This document shows positions 16,255 to 40,988 of a DNA stretch of 64,000 nucleotides, piece after piece. The notes under the pieces were generated by a model. That model saw only the letters and a list, made by a program, of their open reading frames with translations, searched no databases and had not been told where the DNA came from. Positions within the stretch are counted from its first letter, which is position 1, and each line of letters opens with the position of its first letter. The stretch is from Hyphococcus sp. (GTDB lineage Bacteria > Pseudomonadota > Alphaproteobacteria > Caulobacterales > Parvularculaceae). The position numbers were made by a program, and so were the translations under genes. The DNA is taken from contig JANQON010000009.1 in the NCBI GenBank assembly GCA_028289605.1, forward strand, positions 186,001 through 250,000, in the 5' to 3' direction.

Positions 16255-17103
16255 GTGAGCAGCCCAGATCAGCCAATCATCAAGAAGGTCAAAAAGGTCT
16301 CGGGCGAAGGTCACCACGGCGGCGCCTGGAAAGTCGCGTATGCTGACTTTGTGACAGCAATGATGGCCTTCTTTCTTCTCATGTGGCTGTTGAACGCCAC
16401 CACGGAAGACCAGCGCAAGGGCATCGCCGACTATTTCAATCCGACAATTCCCGTTAGCCAGATTTCAGGCGGCGGCACCGACCTCCTCAACGGATCAACG
16501 ATTTTCGCCGAAAAGACGCTGGCGAAAGACGGCTCCGGCGGCGAAAAAACGACCCAGTCGTCGTCAAACGCCGACAAAAATGAGGAAACCGCTCAATCGG
16601 ACAGCGACCAGACAGACAATGACAGCGCAAAAAAGTCCGGAGAAGAGGATCTCAATTCTCTGGAGGAAAGACTGCGCGGACAGATCGACAACATCGAAAC
16701 AGAGGGTCTGGCGCGCCATATTCAAACCCGCGTCACGCCTGAAGGGCTCGTCATCGAACTGGTGGACATCGACGGCAGTCCATTGTTTGACGTGGGGTCC
16801 ACAAACGCTTCGCCGACCATGCGCATTCTCTTGGAAGCGGTGACGTCCAGTTTAAGCCTTGTACAGAATGAAATTTCCATTGTCGGGCACACTGACAGCC
16901 TCGCCTATTCCGGCGCACGCGGCTATTCCAACTGGGAGCTTTCAACCGACCGCGCCCATATTGCGCGGAAAATTATGGTTGAAAAAGGGTTTCCACAGAG
17001 CATGATCGACGAAGTCGCCGGCAAAGCGGACACTGAACCTCTCGTCGAAGATCGGTATGCGCCGCAAAATCGCAGAATCTCGATCACGATCCTAAGATCC
17101 TGA
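16255..17103 (+). CDS. motB: Flagellar motor protein MotB
   Basis: KKVSGEGHHGGAWKVAYADFVTAMMAFFLLMWLLNATT (plug/TM with stator Asp) and OmpA-like IVGHTDSLAYSGARGYSNWELSTDRA; GTG start. Confidence 0.95.
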   Translation: MSSPDQPIIKKVKKVSGEGHHGGAWKVAYADFVTAMMAFFLLMWLLNATTEDQRKGIADYFNPTIPVSQISGGGTDLLNGSTIFAEKTLAKDGSGGEKTTQSSSNADKNEETAQSDSDQTDNDSAKKSGEEDLNSLEERLRGQIDNIETEGLARHIQTRVTPEGLVIELVDIDGSPLFDVGSTNASPTMRILLEAVTSSLSLVQNEISIVGHTDSLAYSGARGYSNWELSTDRAHIARKIMVEKGFPQSMIDEVAGKADTEPLVEDRYAPQNRRISITILRS

Positions 17104-26855: not shown

Positions 26856-26991
26856 TTCTCACAAACCATTAACGGGAACATCAATGCGACGCTCTCAATA
26901 CGTGCATTCGCGTTTACCATTTGATCATTAAGAGGAGGTTACAAAGCACCAAATCGGAACAGTCGCATTCAGCGAAAGACAGACGTCGACA

Positions 26992-27498
26992 ATGGCTGAC
27001 CAAGATAAGAAAGAAGACGCCGAGGAAGCGCCGCCGAAACCGTCGGCGGCGAAAATGCTTATTTCATCGGCGCTTTCGGCAATTGTGCTGGGCGGCGTCG
27101 CCGCCGGTGTTGCCTTTGTGATTCCGGGCAGCGACAAAAAATGCGCAGTTGAGACCGTCGCTGCGGACGCGCCCAAGGAAAAAGAAAAGAACTACGAAGA
27201 TGTCGCATTCGTTAATCTGGAGCCCCTCGTCATCTCCCTGGGGCCGAATGCAAATTCACAATATCTTAAGATTTCGATCACGCTGGAAACGTCGCAATCC
27301 CAATTAAAGACGATTGAACATCTGCGACCGAAGTTTCGAGACGTCTTAAACGTGTATCTACGCGCCGTTGACGAAAGCGATCTGACAGAACCTGCGGCGA
27401 TGACCCGGCTGCGGGCCCAGATGCTCCGGCGCATGCAACTCATCGCACCGGCCGGCGCGATTGATAACGTCCTCATCACCGATTTTGTTCTCAATTAG
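26992..27498 (+). CDS. fliL: Flagellar basal body-associated protein FliL
   Basis: N-terminal TM; VNLEPLVISLGPNANSQYLKISITLE ... LRPKFRDVLNVYLRAVDESDL ... IDNVLITDFVLN. Confidence 0.88.
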   Translation: MADQDKKEDAEEAPPKPSAAKMLISSALSAIVLGGVAAGVAFVIPGSDKKCAVETVAADAPKEKEKNYEDVAFVNLEPLVISLGPNANSQYLKISITLETSQSQLKTIEHLRPKFRDVLNVYLRAVDESDLTEPAAMTRLRAQMLRRMQLIAPAGAIDNVLITDFVLN

Positions 27499-27509: not shown

Positions 27510-28064
27510 ATGGCCCTCATCATTGATTTCCTTCTGCTCGCAGCTTCCGGCGCCGCCTGCTTTTATTGCTGGATCTTGAGTGCGCGCATTAAATCGCTCA
27601 CCAGCAGCGAAAACGGCATTCAATCCGGAATCGCCGCGCTCTCGCAGTCTGCTGAAGATATCCAGTCCGCAATGTCCACCGCCAAAGACGACGCCACGCA
27701 GAAATCAGAGACGCTCGAAGCACTGATCGGTGAAGCGGACAAGAAAATTCCGGAGATTCGCGATCTTCTCGAGCAAATCAACGAGCTAACGCAACGCTCC
27801 GTAAGCGAAGTGGAAACTGCTACCACCAATCTTGTCGGCACGCTTGCGCCGCATATTGAGGAAGCACGGACAGTTTCGCACGAACTGCTCGACTCCCTTG
27901 AAACCGCCTCGGAAAACAACGACCGGGCGTCGGGCCCCGCAACACGGGCCCGACGGTCTGAAGACGCACCGAATTCAAGTGACAACGAAGAAGAGAGTTT
28001 TGAAATCGAACTCTCAGCCGTTGTCGACGAAGACTCGCATCTCAAAGAGGGAGAAGCGGCGTGA
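27510..28064 (+). CDS. Small N-terminal TM protein of the flagellar operon (DUF6468-like)
   Basis: N-terminal TM followed by coiled-coil region; between fliL and motE-like. Confidence 0.6.
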   Translation: MALIIDFLLLAASGAACFYCWILSARIKSLTSSENGIQSGIAALSQSAEDIQSAMSTAKDDATQKSETLEALIGEADKKIPEIRDLLEQINELTQRSVSEVETATTNLVGTLAPHIEEARTVSHELLDSLETASENNDRASGPATRARRSEDAPNSSDNEEESFEIELSAVVDEDSHLKEGEAA

Positions 28065-28705
28065 AGCCGACGCCTTTGACAATCATCGCGGTCATTTTCG
28101 CCTGCTCTTTTGCAGGCCGAATGATCACCGTCGCCGATGCATCGCTCAACACCCTGAAGGATCCGCTGAAACCCGACAATACGGCCGCGGAAAACGCAAC
28201 GCCTGCAGCCCCACTGCAAAAAATGGCCGCAGCGGCGACCGCGGACAAGGCCTCGCCGAAAACAGCGCAACGGGCTTTGCCCTCGGCGACAAACCCGGCG
28301 GAGAAAAACAAGCTGATTGCATCCATAAAAGAACGATCCCACGCGCTCGACGCCAAAGAGACCGCGCTGGAAGACCGCATTCGCTTCCTTGAGACCATTG
28401 AAAAACGCGTGGATCAGAAGCTGCTGCAACTCAAAAAGGAAAACGACGCGCTTTCCGAGCTTGTCGCTTTTGCGGACGAAGCCTCAAAGAACGATATCAA
28501 TTTGCTGTCGAAAATGTATGAGCAGATGAAGCCGCAGAAAGCCGGCGAAATATTTAATAAGATGGATCCCGCTTTCGCCGCTGGCTTCCTGACGGAAATG
28601 AACAGCGAAAATGCTGCTTTGATCTTAATGAATATGAACACTGACAAAGCATATGAAGCCAGCATGATCATCGCGAGTCGCAACGCCGCTGTTCATCAGC
28701 AGTGA
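28061..28705 (+). CDS. MotE-like protein (MgtE N-domain-like C-terminus)
   Basis: LSKMYEQMKPQKAGEIFNKMDPAFAAGFLTEMNSENAALILMNMNTDKAYEASMIIASRNA. Confidence 0.8.
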   Translation: MKPTPLTIIAVIFACSFAGRMITVADASLNTLKDPLKPDNTAAENATPAAPLQKMAAAATADKASPKTAQRALPSATNPAEKNKLIASIKERSHALDAKETALEDRIRFLETIEKRVDQKLLQLKKENDALSELVAFADEASKNDINLLSKMYEQMKPQKAGEIFNKMDPAFAAGFLTEMNSENAALILMNMNTDKAYEASMIIASRNAAVHQQ

Positions 28706-28789: not shown

Positions 28790-29656
28790 ATGGGAGCCAT
28801 TATTGGCATTGTCATTACGCTGAGCATGGTGTTCGGCGGCTACGTGATTGCTGGCGGCAAGTTCAGCATCATTCTGTATTCTCTTCCCTATGAGATGATG
28901 ATGATCGGCGGCGCGGCGATCGGCGCGTTCGTTGTTGGCAATAGTTTCGGGGTGATCAAGCACACAGGCGGCGATATCGTCAAAGTGTTCACTGGTCCTC
29001 GCTGGAAAAAACAGGACTACCAGGATCTTCTTTGCCTGATGTTTTCGCTTGTGAAAGTCGCGAAGGAAAGTCCCGTCGATATTGAACAACACATCGAGAA
29101 CCCGGAAGAGTCTTCGATATTTAATCAGTACCCGAAAATTGCAAAAGACAGCGCAGCCATGGAGATGATCTGCGACACCATTCGCTCCATGATTATGAAC
29201 TTTGACAACCCTCATCAGGTTGAAGAGCTGTTGGAAAAGCAGCTTGAGTCGCTGCATCATGACAGCCTTCACGGCGCCCATGCGCTGCAGAAAATGGCAG
29301 ACGGCCTTCCTGCGCTCGGCATCGTCGCGGCCGTTCTCGGCGTTATCAAGACGATGGCGTCCATCGACAAGCCGCCGGAAGTCCTTGGGCAGATGATTGG
29401 CGGCGCCCTGGTTGGCACATTTCTCGGCGTCTTTCTGTCTTATGGACTGGTCGGCCCCTTCGCCGACAAAGTGAAATCCATCCACGACGAAGAACAGCTT
29501 TTCTACGCCCTGATACGTGAAGCGCTTGTCGCGAGCTTGAACAAGCACACCCCGCAGCTCTGTGTCGAAGTGGCGCGCCGCAACGCGCCGAAAAAGCTTC
29601 GTCCGAGTTTCGCCGAAGTCGAAGAAGCGTTGAAAGAGACGCAAAAGGCGGCATGA
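28790..29656 (+). CDS. motA: Flagellar motor stator protein MotA
   Basis: GAIIGIVITLSMVFGGYVIAGG ... GLPALGIVAAVLGVIKTMASIDKPPEVLGQMIGGALVGTFLGVFLSYGLVGPFADKVKS. Confidence 0.97.
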   Translation: MGAIIGIVITLSMVFGGYVIAGGKFSIILYSLPYEMMMIGGAAIGAFVVGNSFGVIKHTGGDIVKVFTGPRWKKQDYQDLLCLMFSLVKVAKESPVDIEQHIENPEESSIFNQYPKIAKDSAAMEMICDTIRSMIMNFDNPHQVEELLEKQLESLHHDSLHGAHALQKMADGLPALGIVAAVLGVIKTMASIDKPPEVLGQMIGGALVGTFLGVFLSYGLVGPFADKVKSIHDEEQLFYALIREALVASLNKHTPQLCVEVARRNAPKKLRPSFAEVEEALKETQKAA

Positions 29657-31932
29657 TCCGAGCATTCGTCATATCAACGGTTTCCGCTCTGTCGGTATCG
29701 GCCGCCGTCGCTGCCGACGCGTCGATTGTCATCTCAGCCGGCGAACACGGAGATTTCTCCCGCATCGTTGTCGCCGGCGGCGGGCTGGGCGTTGTCACCG
29801 AAAAATCCGGAAATGTCATCCGTTTGAGCAATATCGGCGCGGCCGGGATCGACCTCGGCGATATCAATGTCCGGCAAAAGGCGTTTCGCATCAACAGAGC
29901 CAGACAGACGGAAAGCGGCGTTGTTGAATTCGAGATGAACTGCGACTGCTCCGTTCGCACGTCGCGCCTTGCGAACGGAAAGCTGATTATCGACATCGCC
30001 GGCGCTTCGACGCCGCCGTCTTCAGGTCAAAAAAGCGCGGCGTCGAAGCCTGCAAATCCGCCGAAAACCCCTGCGCCTGCGGCGAAAACCGAAGACACCC
30101 TGTCGGTGGACCAGGCGCGCGACCGTATGGTGGCGCTGCTCGAACAGGCCGCCCAGGAAGGGCTGATCACACTCAGAGACGAGACGAAACCGGCACCGAA
30201 GGAGCAACCCTCGCCCACCGCGGCGCAACCTGTCGCGCAGGCGCAAACGCCGACAACCGCGCCGAAAAACGACCAGTCCGCGCAACAGCCGGGCGCGCCC
30301 GTCAATCTCGTGCCGGAGGCGCAGACGGTCGCAGCAACGACAAACGCGACGGCGCAAACAAAACCGGCCGCGGCGGCCGCGAAGCAACGTTGTCTTTCCG
30401 ATGCTGTTTTCGCCATTGACGGCGCGCCGTTTGAGAAGGACCCGTTGGTCGCCATCGATGGATTGCAAACGCAGCTCGCCGAAGCGTCACAGGGCGAGAA
30501 GCGCGCGCTGATGCTGCAGCTTGTCAACGGATTCTTGTCGATCGGCTTCGGCGACGAAGCGCTCGCGCTTCTCAACGGCAAGGGCGACGGCGCATCGATC
30601 CTCGCCGACATGGCGCGAGCGGTTGCGGAACGCCCGGTCGCCGGCGACGGCGTATTGATGGGCGCGAAGAACTGCGCCGGCGCGCATGCGCTTTGGCAGG
30701 CCGTCGCAAGCGACGGCGAGGATGCGATCGCCAGTTATGCGCGGTCGGAAGGCGCCATCGCCCAGCTTCCAAACCGCCTTAGAACGCTGATCGCGACCCG
30801 TCTCGCCGTCAAAATGGTCGATCTCAGCAATTGGGCCGCAGCGCAACAGCTCTTCGACGTCGCCGTTGGCGAGGATGAAGTGCTATCGCCGGATCTCAAA
30901 TACGTACAGACCCGCCTCGCCGACCACGACGCTGAGGCGGACAAAACCCGCGACACGCTGCTTGAGATTGCCACCCAAAACTCCTCAGCGTCCGATGACG
31001 CTTTACTCGCCCTTGCCGAATCATACGCGTCCCATGGGGCAGAACCTCATGAAGGCTTTACAGAAGACATCGGCGCGCTCGCCAAAATCGCCGGCTCTTC
31101 CAGAGCGGCGTTTTCAGAAGCGTTTTCTTGGGCCGCCATGGGCAATCTCGATGCGGCGATGACCCTGTTGAAGAACGAGGCGCGCAAGGATGCGACGACC
31201 TCTGACGCCGCCGGCGTCTCCGCCGCCGCCATGATTGAACGGGCGCTGGCGAGCGACGATCCGCTGTTGAAAGTGTCGGCCCTCGACGCCTATCTCGCCC
31301 ACCAACCATGGATCGACCCTCAGCGTTCCAAACTTGAATTGCGCGACGGCGTCGCCGCCTATTCTTACGACGCCGGACTGCCCAACCTGGCTTTCGCCCT
31401 GTTGCGAACGCGGCCCGCACCGACAAAGGAAACGAACCGGCGTATCGCCGAAGCGGCGATCGCCGCGGACCGGCCCGGCGACGCGCTTCGCGCCGCGGCG
31501 CCGTTCGCAACGGATCCGCTATTCGGCGCCCTCGTCGCCAACGCCAACATCGCCAAGAAAGACTATCATGCGGCGCTCGCATCTGCAGCGACGATTAACG
31601 ACGAAACAATCCGTCCACGTATGAAAGCGCGCGCCGGCTGGCTGTCGCGGACGTGGTCGGCCGCCGCCGAAGGATTTCGGGGCATTGACCCGAACGAGCT
31701 TGACCGCGCGTCGGCGACTCGCTTCGCGTTCAGCGCCTATATGAACGGCGACAAGACCGCGCCAAGCGCTGTTGAGGCCGTACTTTCTCAGGACGCGCCG
31801 ATCCTGTCGGCAGGCCTGAGAGCGCTGTTCGCCGAAAGCGCTGCGCGGTCAACGCTGCAGCGCGCGAAACTGCTTGCTGAATCGACGGCTGATGAAATCG
31901 CGGCTTTTGAGGAGATCATGAGCGATGGATAA
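29653..31932 (+). CDS. Large predicted exported protein with AMIN-like N-terminus and alpha-helical repeat body, co-transcribed with motA
   Basis: Signal-like MIRAFVISTVSALSVSAAVAADA; beta-rich EHGDFSRIVVAGGGLGVV...GKLIIDIAG; Ala/Pro linker; long helical C-terminus; 4-nt overlap with motA and 8-nt overlap with flgF. Confidence 0.75.
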   Translation: MIRAFVISTVSALSVSAAVAADASIVISAGEHGDFSRIVVAGGGLGVVTEKSGNVIRLSNIGAAGIDLGDINVRQKAFRINRARQTESGVVEFEMNCDCSVRTSRLANGKLIIDIAGASTPPSSGQKSAASKPANPPKTPAPAAKTEDTLSVDQARDRMVALLEQAAQEGLITLRDETKPAPKEQPSPTAAQPVAQAQTPTTAPKNDQSAQQPGAPVNLVPEAQTVAATTNATAQTKPAAAAAKQRCLSDAVFAIDGAPFEKDPLVAIDGLQTQLAEASQGEKRALMLQLVNGFLSIGFGDEALALLNGKGDGASILADMARAVAERPVAGDGVLMGAKNCAGAHALWQAVASDGEDAIASYARSEGAIAQLPNRLRTLIATRLAVKMVDLSNWAAAQQLFDVAVGEDEVLSPDLKYVQTRLADHDAEADKTRDTLLEIATQNSSASDDALLALAESYASHGAEPHEGFTEDIGALAKIAGSSRAAFSEAFSWAAMGNLDAAMTLLKNEARKDATTSDAAGVSAAAMIERALASDDPLLKVSALDAYLAHQPWIDPQRSKLELRDGVAAYSYDAGLPNLAFALLRTRPAPTKETNRRIAEAAIAADRPGDALRAAAPFATDPLFGALVANANIAKKDYHAALASAATINDETIRPRMKARAGWLSRTWSAAAEGFRGIDPNELDRASATRFAFSAYMNGDKTAPSAVEAVLSQDAPILSAGLRALFAESAARSTLQRAKLLAESTADEIAAFEEIMSDG

Positions 31933-32644
31933 TGCTGGATATGTCGGATTGTCGCGGCAGGCCGGGTTGATGCGAGAGCTGAACATCGTCGCCAACAATC
32001 TCGCCAACATGAACACCAACGGCTTTCGGCGCGAAAGTGCTATCTTTGCAGAACATGTCGCGGCGCTGGAAAACGGCGACCCCAGTCTGTCCATCTCCAC
32101 GCAAAGCCGTCGCTTTGTCGACACCAGCGCCGGCGAGGCCGCGGTGACCGATCAGCCTTTCGATATGGCCATCAGCGGCGACGGGTTTTTCCTTGTCGAA
32201 GCGCCTGGCGGCGAGCGTCTCACCCGCGACGGCGCGTTTTCCCTGAACGACAACCGCGAGCTCGTGAACGCGCAAGGATTTCGCGTGCTCGATGAGGGCG
32301 GCAGCGCCATTGTGATCCCGCCGGGACAGAACGACGTTTCTGTTTCCGTGGACGGCTCCATTGTCGCAAACGGACAGCCGGTCGCCCGGCTCGGCGTTGT
32401 TACCGCCGACCCTGCCTTCATGGTGCGCGAAGGCAACAACATGTTTCGCGCCGAGAACGGATTTGACGCCGTCCTCGATCCGCAGGTCCGGCAAGGCGCG
32501 TTGGAAGGCTCCAACGTAAACGCCGTTGAAGAAATGGCGCGGCTAATCGTGGTCCAGCGCGCATATGAAGCCAGCAAGAGATTCGTCGACGATGAGAATG
32601 AGCGGATCACCAGGACGATCCGCACGCTGGGACGATCGCAATGA
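31925..32644 (+). CDS. flgF: Flagellar basal-body rod protein FlgF
   Basis: LSRQAGLMRELNIVANNLANMNTNGFRRES ... QGALEGSNVNAVEEMARLIVVQRAYEASKRFVDDE. Confidence 0.94.
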   Translation: MDNAGYVGLSRQAGLMRELNIVANNLANMNTNGFRRESAIFAEHVAALENGDPSLSISTQSRRFVDTSAGEAAVTDQPFDMAISGDGFFLVEAPGGERLTRDGAFSLNDNRELVNAQGFRVLDEGGSAIVIPPGQNDVSVSVDGSIVANGQPVARLGVVTADPAFMVREGNNMFRAENGFDAVLDPQVRQGALEGSNVNAVEEMARLIVVQRAYEASKRFVDDENERITRTIRTLGRSQ

Positions 32645-34648: not shown

Positions 34649-35212
34649 ATGTTAAAGATTGTCGCCATCGTTCTCCAGGCCGCGGCTGTCGCCGGCGGCG
34701 CCTATGTGGGCCTTTCCATGAAAGGCGGCGGCGATACGGAGTCGCAAGACACTGAAGCGACGGAAGAAAAGAGCGACGGCGAAAAAAGCAACGGCGACAA
34801 GTCCAAAAAAGACAAAAAGGACAAGAAGGACAAGAAGGACAAAAAGGGAAAGAAAAAGGGCGGCAAGGGCAGCGATTATCCGGACGCCTCTTCCGGCTAT
34901 ATGAAATTCAGCCGCCAGTTTATTGTGCCGGTGGTCAGCAGGGACAACGTCAACGCCCTTGTGATTCTGGAAATCAATCTGGAGCTGGACCCTTCTGCGA
35001 CGGAGGGCGCCTACACGCGCGAACCGAAAGTGCGCGACGCATTGCTCAGCTCGCTCTTGCAACTTTCCAATGAAGGGGCGTTCAGCGACCAGCTGCTGGC
35101 GCAGGAAAACCTCGATGAAATCCGCGCCCGTCTGTTAGCGGCGGCCAGCAGCGTATTGGGGGATGACGTTGTTGGCGTCTTGATCCTCAGCGTTGCCCGC
35201 CAGGACATCTAA
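34649..35212 (+). CDS. Second FliL-like membrane protein with a lysine-rich linker
   Basis: N-terminal TM, tract KSKKDKKDKKDKKDKKGKKKGGKG, then YMKFSRQFIVPVVSRDNVNALVILEINLELDPSATEGAYTREPKVRDALLSSLLQLSNEGAF. Confidence 0.65.
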   Translation: MLKIVAIVLQAAAVAGGAYVGLSMKGGGDTESQDTEATEEKSDGEKSNGDKSKKDKKDKKDKKDKKGKKKGGKGSDYPDASSGYMKFSRQFIVPVVSRDNVNALVILEINLELDPSATEGAYTREPKVRDALLSSLLQLSNEGAFSDQLLAQENLDEIRARLLAAASSVLGDDVVGVLILSVARQDI

Positions 35213-40145: not shown

Positions 40146-40988
40146 ATGGTTTTCCAGCCGGCAATCGGGCTTGGCGGGTATTCCGGTTGGCTCATTCTCG
40201 AGCGCTCCGAAGCCCGACAGCGCGAGGTTTTCGAACGCTCGCCCATCCTGGAACGCGATGTCGCCTATTTTCGCGACAACATTTCAAGCGCGACATCGGC
40301 GAAAGATCTTGTCGCCGACAGACGCCTGCTGACCGTAGCGCTCGGCGCTTTCGGTCTGGGCGAAGAGATTGATAAGCGCGCTTTCATCCGCAAAGTTCTC
40401 GAGGAAGGCACCGAAAACGACGACGCATTCGCCAACCGTTTGAACGAACCGCGATACCGCGCCCTCGCGGAGGCGTTCGGATACGGCAATATTGACGGCG
40501 GTTCCAGCGTTCTGCTCGAGGACTTTCGCGAAGACATCATCGCACGCTACAAGGTTCGCGCGTTCGATCTCGCTGTCGGCGAGGTCGACAACGACATGCG
40601 GCTGGCGCTGAACTTTCGCCGAGAAATCAGCAGCGTCGCTAGTCAGGACAGCACCGAAACGGCGTCATGGTTTCGCATTATGGGCAACCAGCCCTTGCGC
40701 GAAGTCCTGGCGACGGCGATGAACCTGCCCCAGGAAGTCTCGCAGCTTGACATTGACCGGCAGCAGGAAATTTTCGCAGACAAGGCCAGTCAGCTCTTCG
40801 GCGATTCCGATCCGACATCCCTTTCAGATCCCGAAAAAATAGATGAAGTGTTGCGCCGTTTCTTTATCGTCCGCCAGACGCAGAACGGACCATCGGCGTT
40901 AACGCCAGGCTTTTCCGCCCTGACCCTGTTGCAGGGAACCGCCCTCGGCGCCGGAGCCAGTCAAAACCTTTTTCTGTCACAAACCTGA
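40146..40988 (+). CDS. DUF1217-family flagellar-locus protein
   Basis: LGGYSGWLILERSEARQREVFERSPILERDVAYFRDNISSATSAKDLVADRRLLTVALGAFGL. Confidence 0.85.
   Translation: MVFQPAIGLGGYSGWLILERSEARQREVFERSPILERDVAYFRDNISSATSAKDLVADRRLLTVALGAFGLGEEIDKRAFIRKVLEEGTENDDAFANRLNEPRYRALAEAFGYGNIDGGSSVLLEDFREDIIARYKVRAFDLAVGEVDNDMRLALNFRREISSVASQDSTETASWFRIMGNQPLREVLATAMNLPQEVSQLDIDRQQEIFADKASQLFGDSDPTSLSDPEKIDEVLRRFFIVRQTQNGPSALTPGFSALTLLQGTALGAGASQNLFLSQT

Follow-up and report, generated by a model that had tools for sequence, protein, structure and literature searches.

The 64,000-nucleotide stretch analysed here (the window; positions 186,001 to 250,000 of Hyphococcus sp. contig JANQON010000009.1) carries a flagellar locus in which the gene directly downstream of motA very probably encodes MotK, a protein of Rhodobacterales-type flagellar systems that would link rotor housing and stators in the manner of a spoke. 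The motK open frame begins with an ATG, encodes 759 aa and contains no internal stops. Its ATG at 29653 overlaps the motA TGA (29654-29656) in the 4-nt sequence ATGA, and its end at 31932 lies 8 nt inside flgF, which starts at 31925; these overlaps, already described in the original prediction, are confirmed by the coordinates. The order of genes is fliL, pflI-like, motE-like, motA, motK, flgF-flgG-flgA-flgH and a second FliL-like gene, with motB some distance upstream. The motA start is probably ATG 28790 and not TTG 28754, since the relatives encode mostly 288 aa.

16255..17103, + strand: motB, plug and OmpA domain, predicted stator partner
26992..27498, + strand: fliL
27510..28064, + strand: pflI-like gene (DUF6468)
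28061..28705, + strand: motE-like gene of the MgtE_N / COG3334 type, E-ring candidate
28790..29656, + strand: motA, 288 aa counted from ATG 28790; last 4 nt shared with motK
29653..31932, + strand: motK, 759-aa predicted periplasmic flagellar scaffold protein (open frame, relatives' loci, hhalign, AlphaFold2 model)
31925..32644, + strand: flgF (Pfam FlgE/F/G family); first 8 nt shared with motK

An AlphaFold2 model of the window MotK, made with 34 homologues (mean predicted local distance difference test score, pLDDT, 83; predicted TM-score, pTM, 0.60), divides the protein into the following parts.

29653..29712, + strand: predicted Sec signal peptide, residues 1-20 (AVA/AD; sequence by eye, low pLDDT)
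29725..30000, + strand: AMIN-like beta domain, residues 25-116, with invariant GEHxxxSR (30-37) and conserved CxC (C97, C99) (model, alignment)
30004..30099, + strand: disordered Pro/Ala linker, first part, residues 118-149 (model, composition)
30100..30174, + strand: conserved linker helix, residues 150-174, LSVDQARDRMVALLEQAAQEGLITL, candidate docking motif (model, column entropy)
30175..30387, + strand: disordered linker, second part, residues 175-245 (model, composition)
30388..31926, + strand: TPR-like alpha-solenoid, residues 246-758, with invariant C247 and C341 (Pfam, alignment, model)

The N-terminus, judged by eye, is Sec-signal-like (SVSAAVA/AD), as it is in the relatives. Eight strands at residues 25-116 form an AMIN-like domain, for which the Pfam AMIN score is sub-threshold (15.2 bits, cut-off 20.5), and a scan of the window MotK with NCBIfam gave no match. 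Ala makes up 22 % and Pro 14 % of the linker (118-246), which falls below a pLDDT of 50 at 120-149 and 178-242; between these disordered stretches a helix is modelled at residues 152-168. Residues from about 250 to 758 make up an unbroken alpha-solenoid with pLDDT mostly above 90, and Pfam TPR models match several members of the family. The beta domain, the Pro/Ala linker and the helical-repeat body had all been read from the letters in the original prediction, and each is borne out by the AlphaFold2 model, a check of the kind that it had proposed, the linker with the addition of its conserved helix. The GEH and SR of GEHxxxSR, C247 and C341 are invariant in 34/34 homologues and C97 and C99 nearly so; judged from these sequences, the pairs C97/C99 and C247/C341 possibly form disulphides. 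MotE of Cereibacter sphaeroides has been reported to form a disulphide (PMC10954123).

The protein that resembles this one most closely in setting and build is MotK of the C. sphaeroides Fla2 system (RSWS8N_12065), encoded in the fla2 operon in the order fliL2, pflI, motE, motA2, motK and consisting of a signal peptide, an eight-strand AMIN-like domain, Pro-rich disordered parts and TPR-like helices (PMC10954123). It is periplasmic, binds MotE and MotB2, is required for rotation while being dispensable for the filament, and localises to the flagellated pole in dependence on MotA2/MotB2 (PMC10954123). The window gene is likewise the last of a fliL-pflI-motE-motA-motK series, and its product has the eight-strand AMIN-like domain, the Pro-rich disordered region and the TPR-like helices. 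Sequence homology was found through Rhodobacteraceae proteins of the same slot, which stand in for C. sphaeroides MotK: when the Parvularculaceae proteins encoded directly after motA (alignment A2) were compared with those of Rhodobacteraceae (A3) by hhalign, the match had a probability of 100, an E-value of 4.5e-48 and 721 columns. On the strength of the operon match and this comparison the protein is therefore filed as MotK. Periplasmic location, need for rotation and binding of MotE and MotB would carry over from the C. sphaeroides orthologue. The window protein differs in length (759 residues vs 652) and in having flgF-flgG-flgA-flgH directly 3′ of its gene.

That the window protein is unrelated to MotK, sharing only position and a generic AMIN plus TPR build, is hardly credible, even though it shares only some 20 % identity with the Rhodobacteraceae proteins and repeats of the TPR-like kind are easily aligned. 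The full-length comparison of A2 with A3 is independent; the AMIN domain of the combined family matches the Rhodobacteraceae set with a probability of 100 (E 8.5e-39, though these sets share rows), while six other profiles from the same loci reach at most 0.9 %, and conserved motifs and cysteines are common to both sets. The MotK family was described in 2024, and the window protein is a further member of it and no new motor protein. Earlier work already places MotK, MotC, PflA and CC_2058 together as partners, of the spoke type, of MotE/FlgY, the E-ring protein (PMC11870540, PMC13023049), so that the suggestion of a new stator ring or disk protein in the original prediction falls away, whereas the role it proposed, that of a periplasmic stator-scaffold protein like PflA or MotC, is supported through orthology to C. 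sphaeroides MotK (PMC10954123). Since this role was known, the finding itself is modest; three points of further use are taken up below, namely the helix in the linker, the kinship with CC_2058 and the presence of two flagellar systems.

One motK copy of the window type is present in the genome itself, and the gene is found in 21 of the 40 relatives sampled; the genome records with close relatives of the window motK are those of Marinicaulis and other Parvularculaceae, by which the window would most likely be placed in Marinicaulis. Because homologues of similar length occupy the same slot in dozens of genomes, this is a real gene and not a chance open frame. Gene order is conserved in named loci, for example those of Defluviimonas denitrificans, Yoonia vestfoldensis and Rhodobacter sp., except in loci cut by a contig end. 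Many Rhodobacteraceae motK genes are too diverged for a single-sequence search and were picked as the long open frame directly 3′ of motA. Conservation in the whole-family alignment (A1) is nowhere high enough for a pattern search, for which the closer set A2 is usable, and a tblastn search of plasmids with the window protein returned no matches. Some metagenome-assembled genomes (L042 and L055, Marinicaulis sp. OFTM318; also G006 and G007) have two divergent window-type MotK loci, with about 45 % and about 30 % identity to the window protein, which reflect either two systems or bin contamination (estimated at 3-7 %).

A gene in the corresponding position is also known from Phaeobacter inhibens, in which CP4 (PGA1_c35690) lies directly 3′ of motA behind fliF-fliL-CP2-CP3 and is needed for motility (PMC12363192); that paper does not call it MotK and states that it is exclusive to Rhodobacterales. 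By gene order, CP2, CP3 and CP4 (PGA1_c35660-c35690) look like PflI, MotE and MotK, and counterparts of these supposedly Rhodobacterales-exclusive proteins (PMC12363192) occur in Parvularculaceae too. MotC of Sinorhizobium meliloti is periplasmic, stabilised by MotE, needed for rotation and TPR-rich, and according to the same review lacks an AMIN domain (PMC13023049); its likeness to the window MotK is one of description. The S. meliloti motE gene is placed between flgI and flgH (PMC10954123).

PflA of Campylobacter jejuni combines an AMIN-like beta-sandwich, an unstructured linker and a TPR spoke, and its partner FlgY is the counterpart of MotE (PMC12222027, PMC11870540). When the window model was compared with the PDB using Foldseek, the C. 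jejuni periplasmic scaffold entry 9hmf ranked second (chain K, 773 residues, E 5.5e-5, 864 columns) and was the only high-ranking match from a flagellar motor; from its length, we infer that chain K is PflA. Several observations nonetheless weigh against a motor spoke of the MotK type. The Foldseek TM-scores to chain K are low (0.27/0.26; root-mean-square deviation 41 Å, for a flexible Cα-only model), comparable scores are reached by generic eukaryotic TPR proteins, and a profile search of all PDB chains gave no flagellar protein at E≤10, only matches at chance level. Among the window proteins scanned, none was recognisable as a PflB-like rim protein. The sequence link to MotK runs through Rhodobacteraceae relatives and not through C. 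sphaeroides MotK itself, and the functional properties attributed to the window protein would be those of the C. sphaeroides orthologue. Given the low TM-scores and the generic TPR matches, the 9hmf match supports a likeness and is no proof of one. Sequence homology between PflA and the window MotK was sought and not detected, so the protein is best described as one that would work like PflA and is not filed as PflA.

In the mechanism that we favour, MotE would form the E-ring; in the window MotE a hydrophobic helix at the N-terminus is followed by a long helix (79-154) and, at the C-terminus, by a FliG/MgtE-like helical domain, a build like that reported for FlgY. The MotK solenoid would bind the MotE helix, and the AMIN domain and linker would reach the peptidoglycan and the region of MotB, so that MotK would form a spoke from the rotor housing to the stators and would position or activate MotA/MotB. 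The geometry of E-ring and spoke, the binding of peptidoglycan and the docking role of the linker helix are all inferred. A different role, as a periplasmic holdase or assembly factor that serves, for instance, MotE or MotB without itself belonging to the motor structure, is unlikely: a TPR solenoid is compatible with it, TPR proteins often act in this way, S. meliloti MotE was originally characterised as a MotC chaperone, and the stability of C. sphaeroides MotE depends on MotK (PMC13023049, PMC10954123), but the similarly built PflA is a visible spoke in C. jejuni (PMC12222027). Very improbable is a flagellum-linked factor for peptidoglycan targeting or remodelling that would bring in a hydrolase (SltF, for example) through its AMIN domain and affect the stators indirectly. 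The AMIN-like domain of the model fits such a factor, as does the position of P. inhibens sltF directly 3′ of the gene in the matching slot (PMC12363192); however, Pfam and NCBIfam scans found no catalytic domain in the window MotK, flgF and not sltF follows it in the window, and mutants of the C. sphaeroides orthologue build filaments and fail only in rotation (PMC10954123).

If MotK is a spoke, its linker helix is a small and testable target for learning how spokes contact stators or one another. Mean column entropy is lowest in this helix (1.82 bits at residues 150-174), compared with 2.14 in the AMIN domain, 2.35 in the solenoid and 2.8-2.9 bits in the linkers. In C. jejuni PflA the linker after the AMIN-like domain wraps PflB (PMC11870540, PMC12222027), and because the same place in PflA binds its partner, the MotK helix is a candidate docking motif by analogy. 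We put forward, as a tentative and somewhat doubtful extension, that the helix could serve as a docking peptide in the TPR groove of an adjacent MotK or of an unrecognised rim protein, and that MotK alone might build both spokes and rim of the stator-holding ring in alphaproteobacterial motors.

The relationship of MotK to proteins of the Caulobacter crescentus CC_2058 type could be taken further. Velez-Gonzalez et al. noted that the Caulobacteraceae genes beside motE (CC_2058) are dissimilar to motK by BLAST and have the N-terminal fold in common with it, and a structure-based link between MotK and CC_2058 has been proposed in the E-ring review (PMC13023049); the CC_2058 mutant is cited as non-motile in PMC10954123. 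CC_2058 and proteins like it adjoin motE and have AMIN domains and a TPR solenoid, as does the window family. They differ in being usually 950-1380 aa long with up to three AMIN-like stretches, and their loci have the order fliL-fliM-pflI-motE with no motA alongside, whereas in the window motA stands between motE and motK. The comparison was made with 13 CC_2058-like proteins from Caulobacterales genomes, taken as the gene after fliL..pflI-motE, which represent that slot and not C. crescentus CC_2058 itself. Against the MotK family profile this set gave a probability of 99.8 (E 2.3e-27, 698 columns), and with split profiles the AMIN part alone gave 98 % (E 2.6e-13) and the solenoid alone 99.4 % (E 2.1e-21). 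Six unrelated control profiles from the same loci, with no TPR family among them, stayed at or below 0.9 % probability. A chance alignment of repeats as the source of the match was rejected, the split profiles being significant and the six controls not.

Of 241 alphaproteobacterial genomes sampled, 93 contain matches to the MotK profile, for the most part in open frames 900-1400 aa long; of 15 matches inspected, 14 were clustered with motE and the remaining one (L160) lay between motA and flgF. Together the profile matches and the motE-cluster positions indicate that MotK and the CC_2058-like proteins are, at the level of sequence profiles, one family with a variable number of AMIN domains. 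New here is this profile evidence joining two groups that had been linked by structure only. An E-ring-plus-spoke module is probably widespread in Alphaproteobacteria, since the profile matches extend to these 93 genomes and the inspected ones lie near motE or between motA and flgF. One Caulobacterales family (f2; L130-L133 and L160) has a short motK (584 aa) between motA and flgF, apart from motE; its motE is found with fliL-pflI and adjoins a FliF-like gene and an lpt-like/rpoN-like stretch.

Both types of protein are present in the window genome, where FlhA, FliF and MotB_plug genes each occur twice. A second cluster on contig 14 (L113:3831-11770) consists of fliL, a FliM-like gene (by eye), pflI, motE and a gene for a 704-aa protein, with flgF-G-A-H divergent; it represents a flagellar system of Caulobacter type and has the CC_2058-type gene order with no motA beside motE, and its 704-aa protein falls within the CC_2058-like set (E 1.4e-43). 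In a tree of FlgH proteins the window type groups with Rhodobacterales (100/100) and the contig-14 type with the remaining Caulobacterales (100/100). The separate MotE and CC_2058-like protein on contig 14 and the split in the FlgH tree thus mark two flagellar systems, each with a MotE of its own and with a spoke-type protein of a different type. Their presence in the same genome offers a natural within-cell comparison. The second DUF6468 gene was considered as a stray paralogue and rejected as such, as it sits in the second flagellar cluster. A single shared stator for the genome was likewise dropped, as a further MotB_plug match, the second of the genome, lies next to a weak MotA_N match on contig 13 (151434-152364).

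Flagellar genes fill much of the window, including those for a FlgE-type hook protein, FlgI, FliP, FliN, FliF, flagellin and FlhA. Two further features belong to this setting.

26928..26942, + strand: CtrA-box-like TTAA-N7-TTAA, 1 mismatch, upstream of fliL (pattern scan of the window)
34649..35212, + strand: second FliL-like protein, weak Pfam FliL match (E 3e-5)

A CtrA site 5′ of fliL is among the features of the C. sphaeroides MotK type, and the candidate in the window, a CtrA-box-like site, reads TTAAGAGGAGGTTAC. Boxes of the form TTAA-N7-TTAA with at most one mismatch number 18 in the window vs 5.9 expected, at positions that include 16184, 17120, 26928, 28718, 42331 and 49312, and this excess, with several of the sites just 5′ of flagellar genes, suggests that the flagellar locus may be under CtrA control. 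A DUF1217 protein is also encoded within the flagellar locus, at 40146-40988 of the window.
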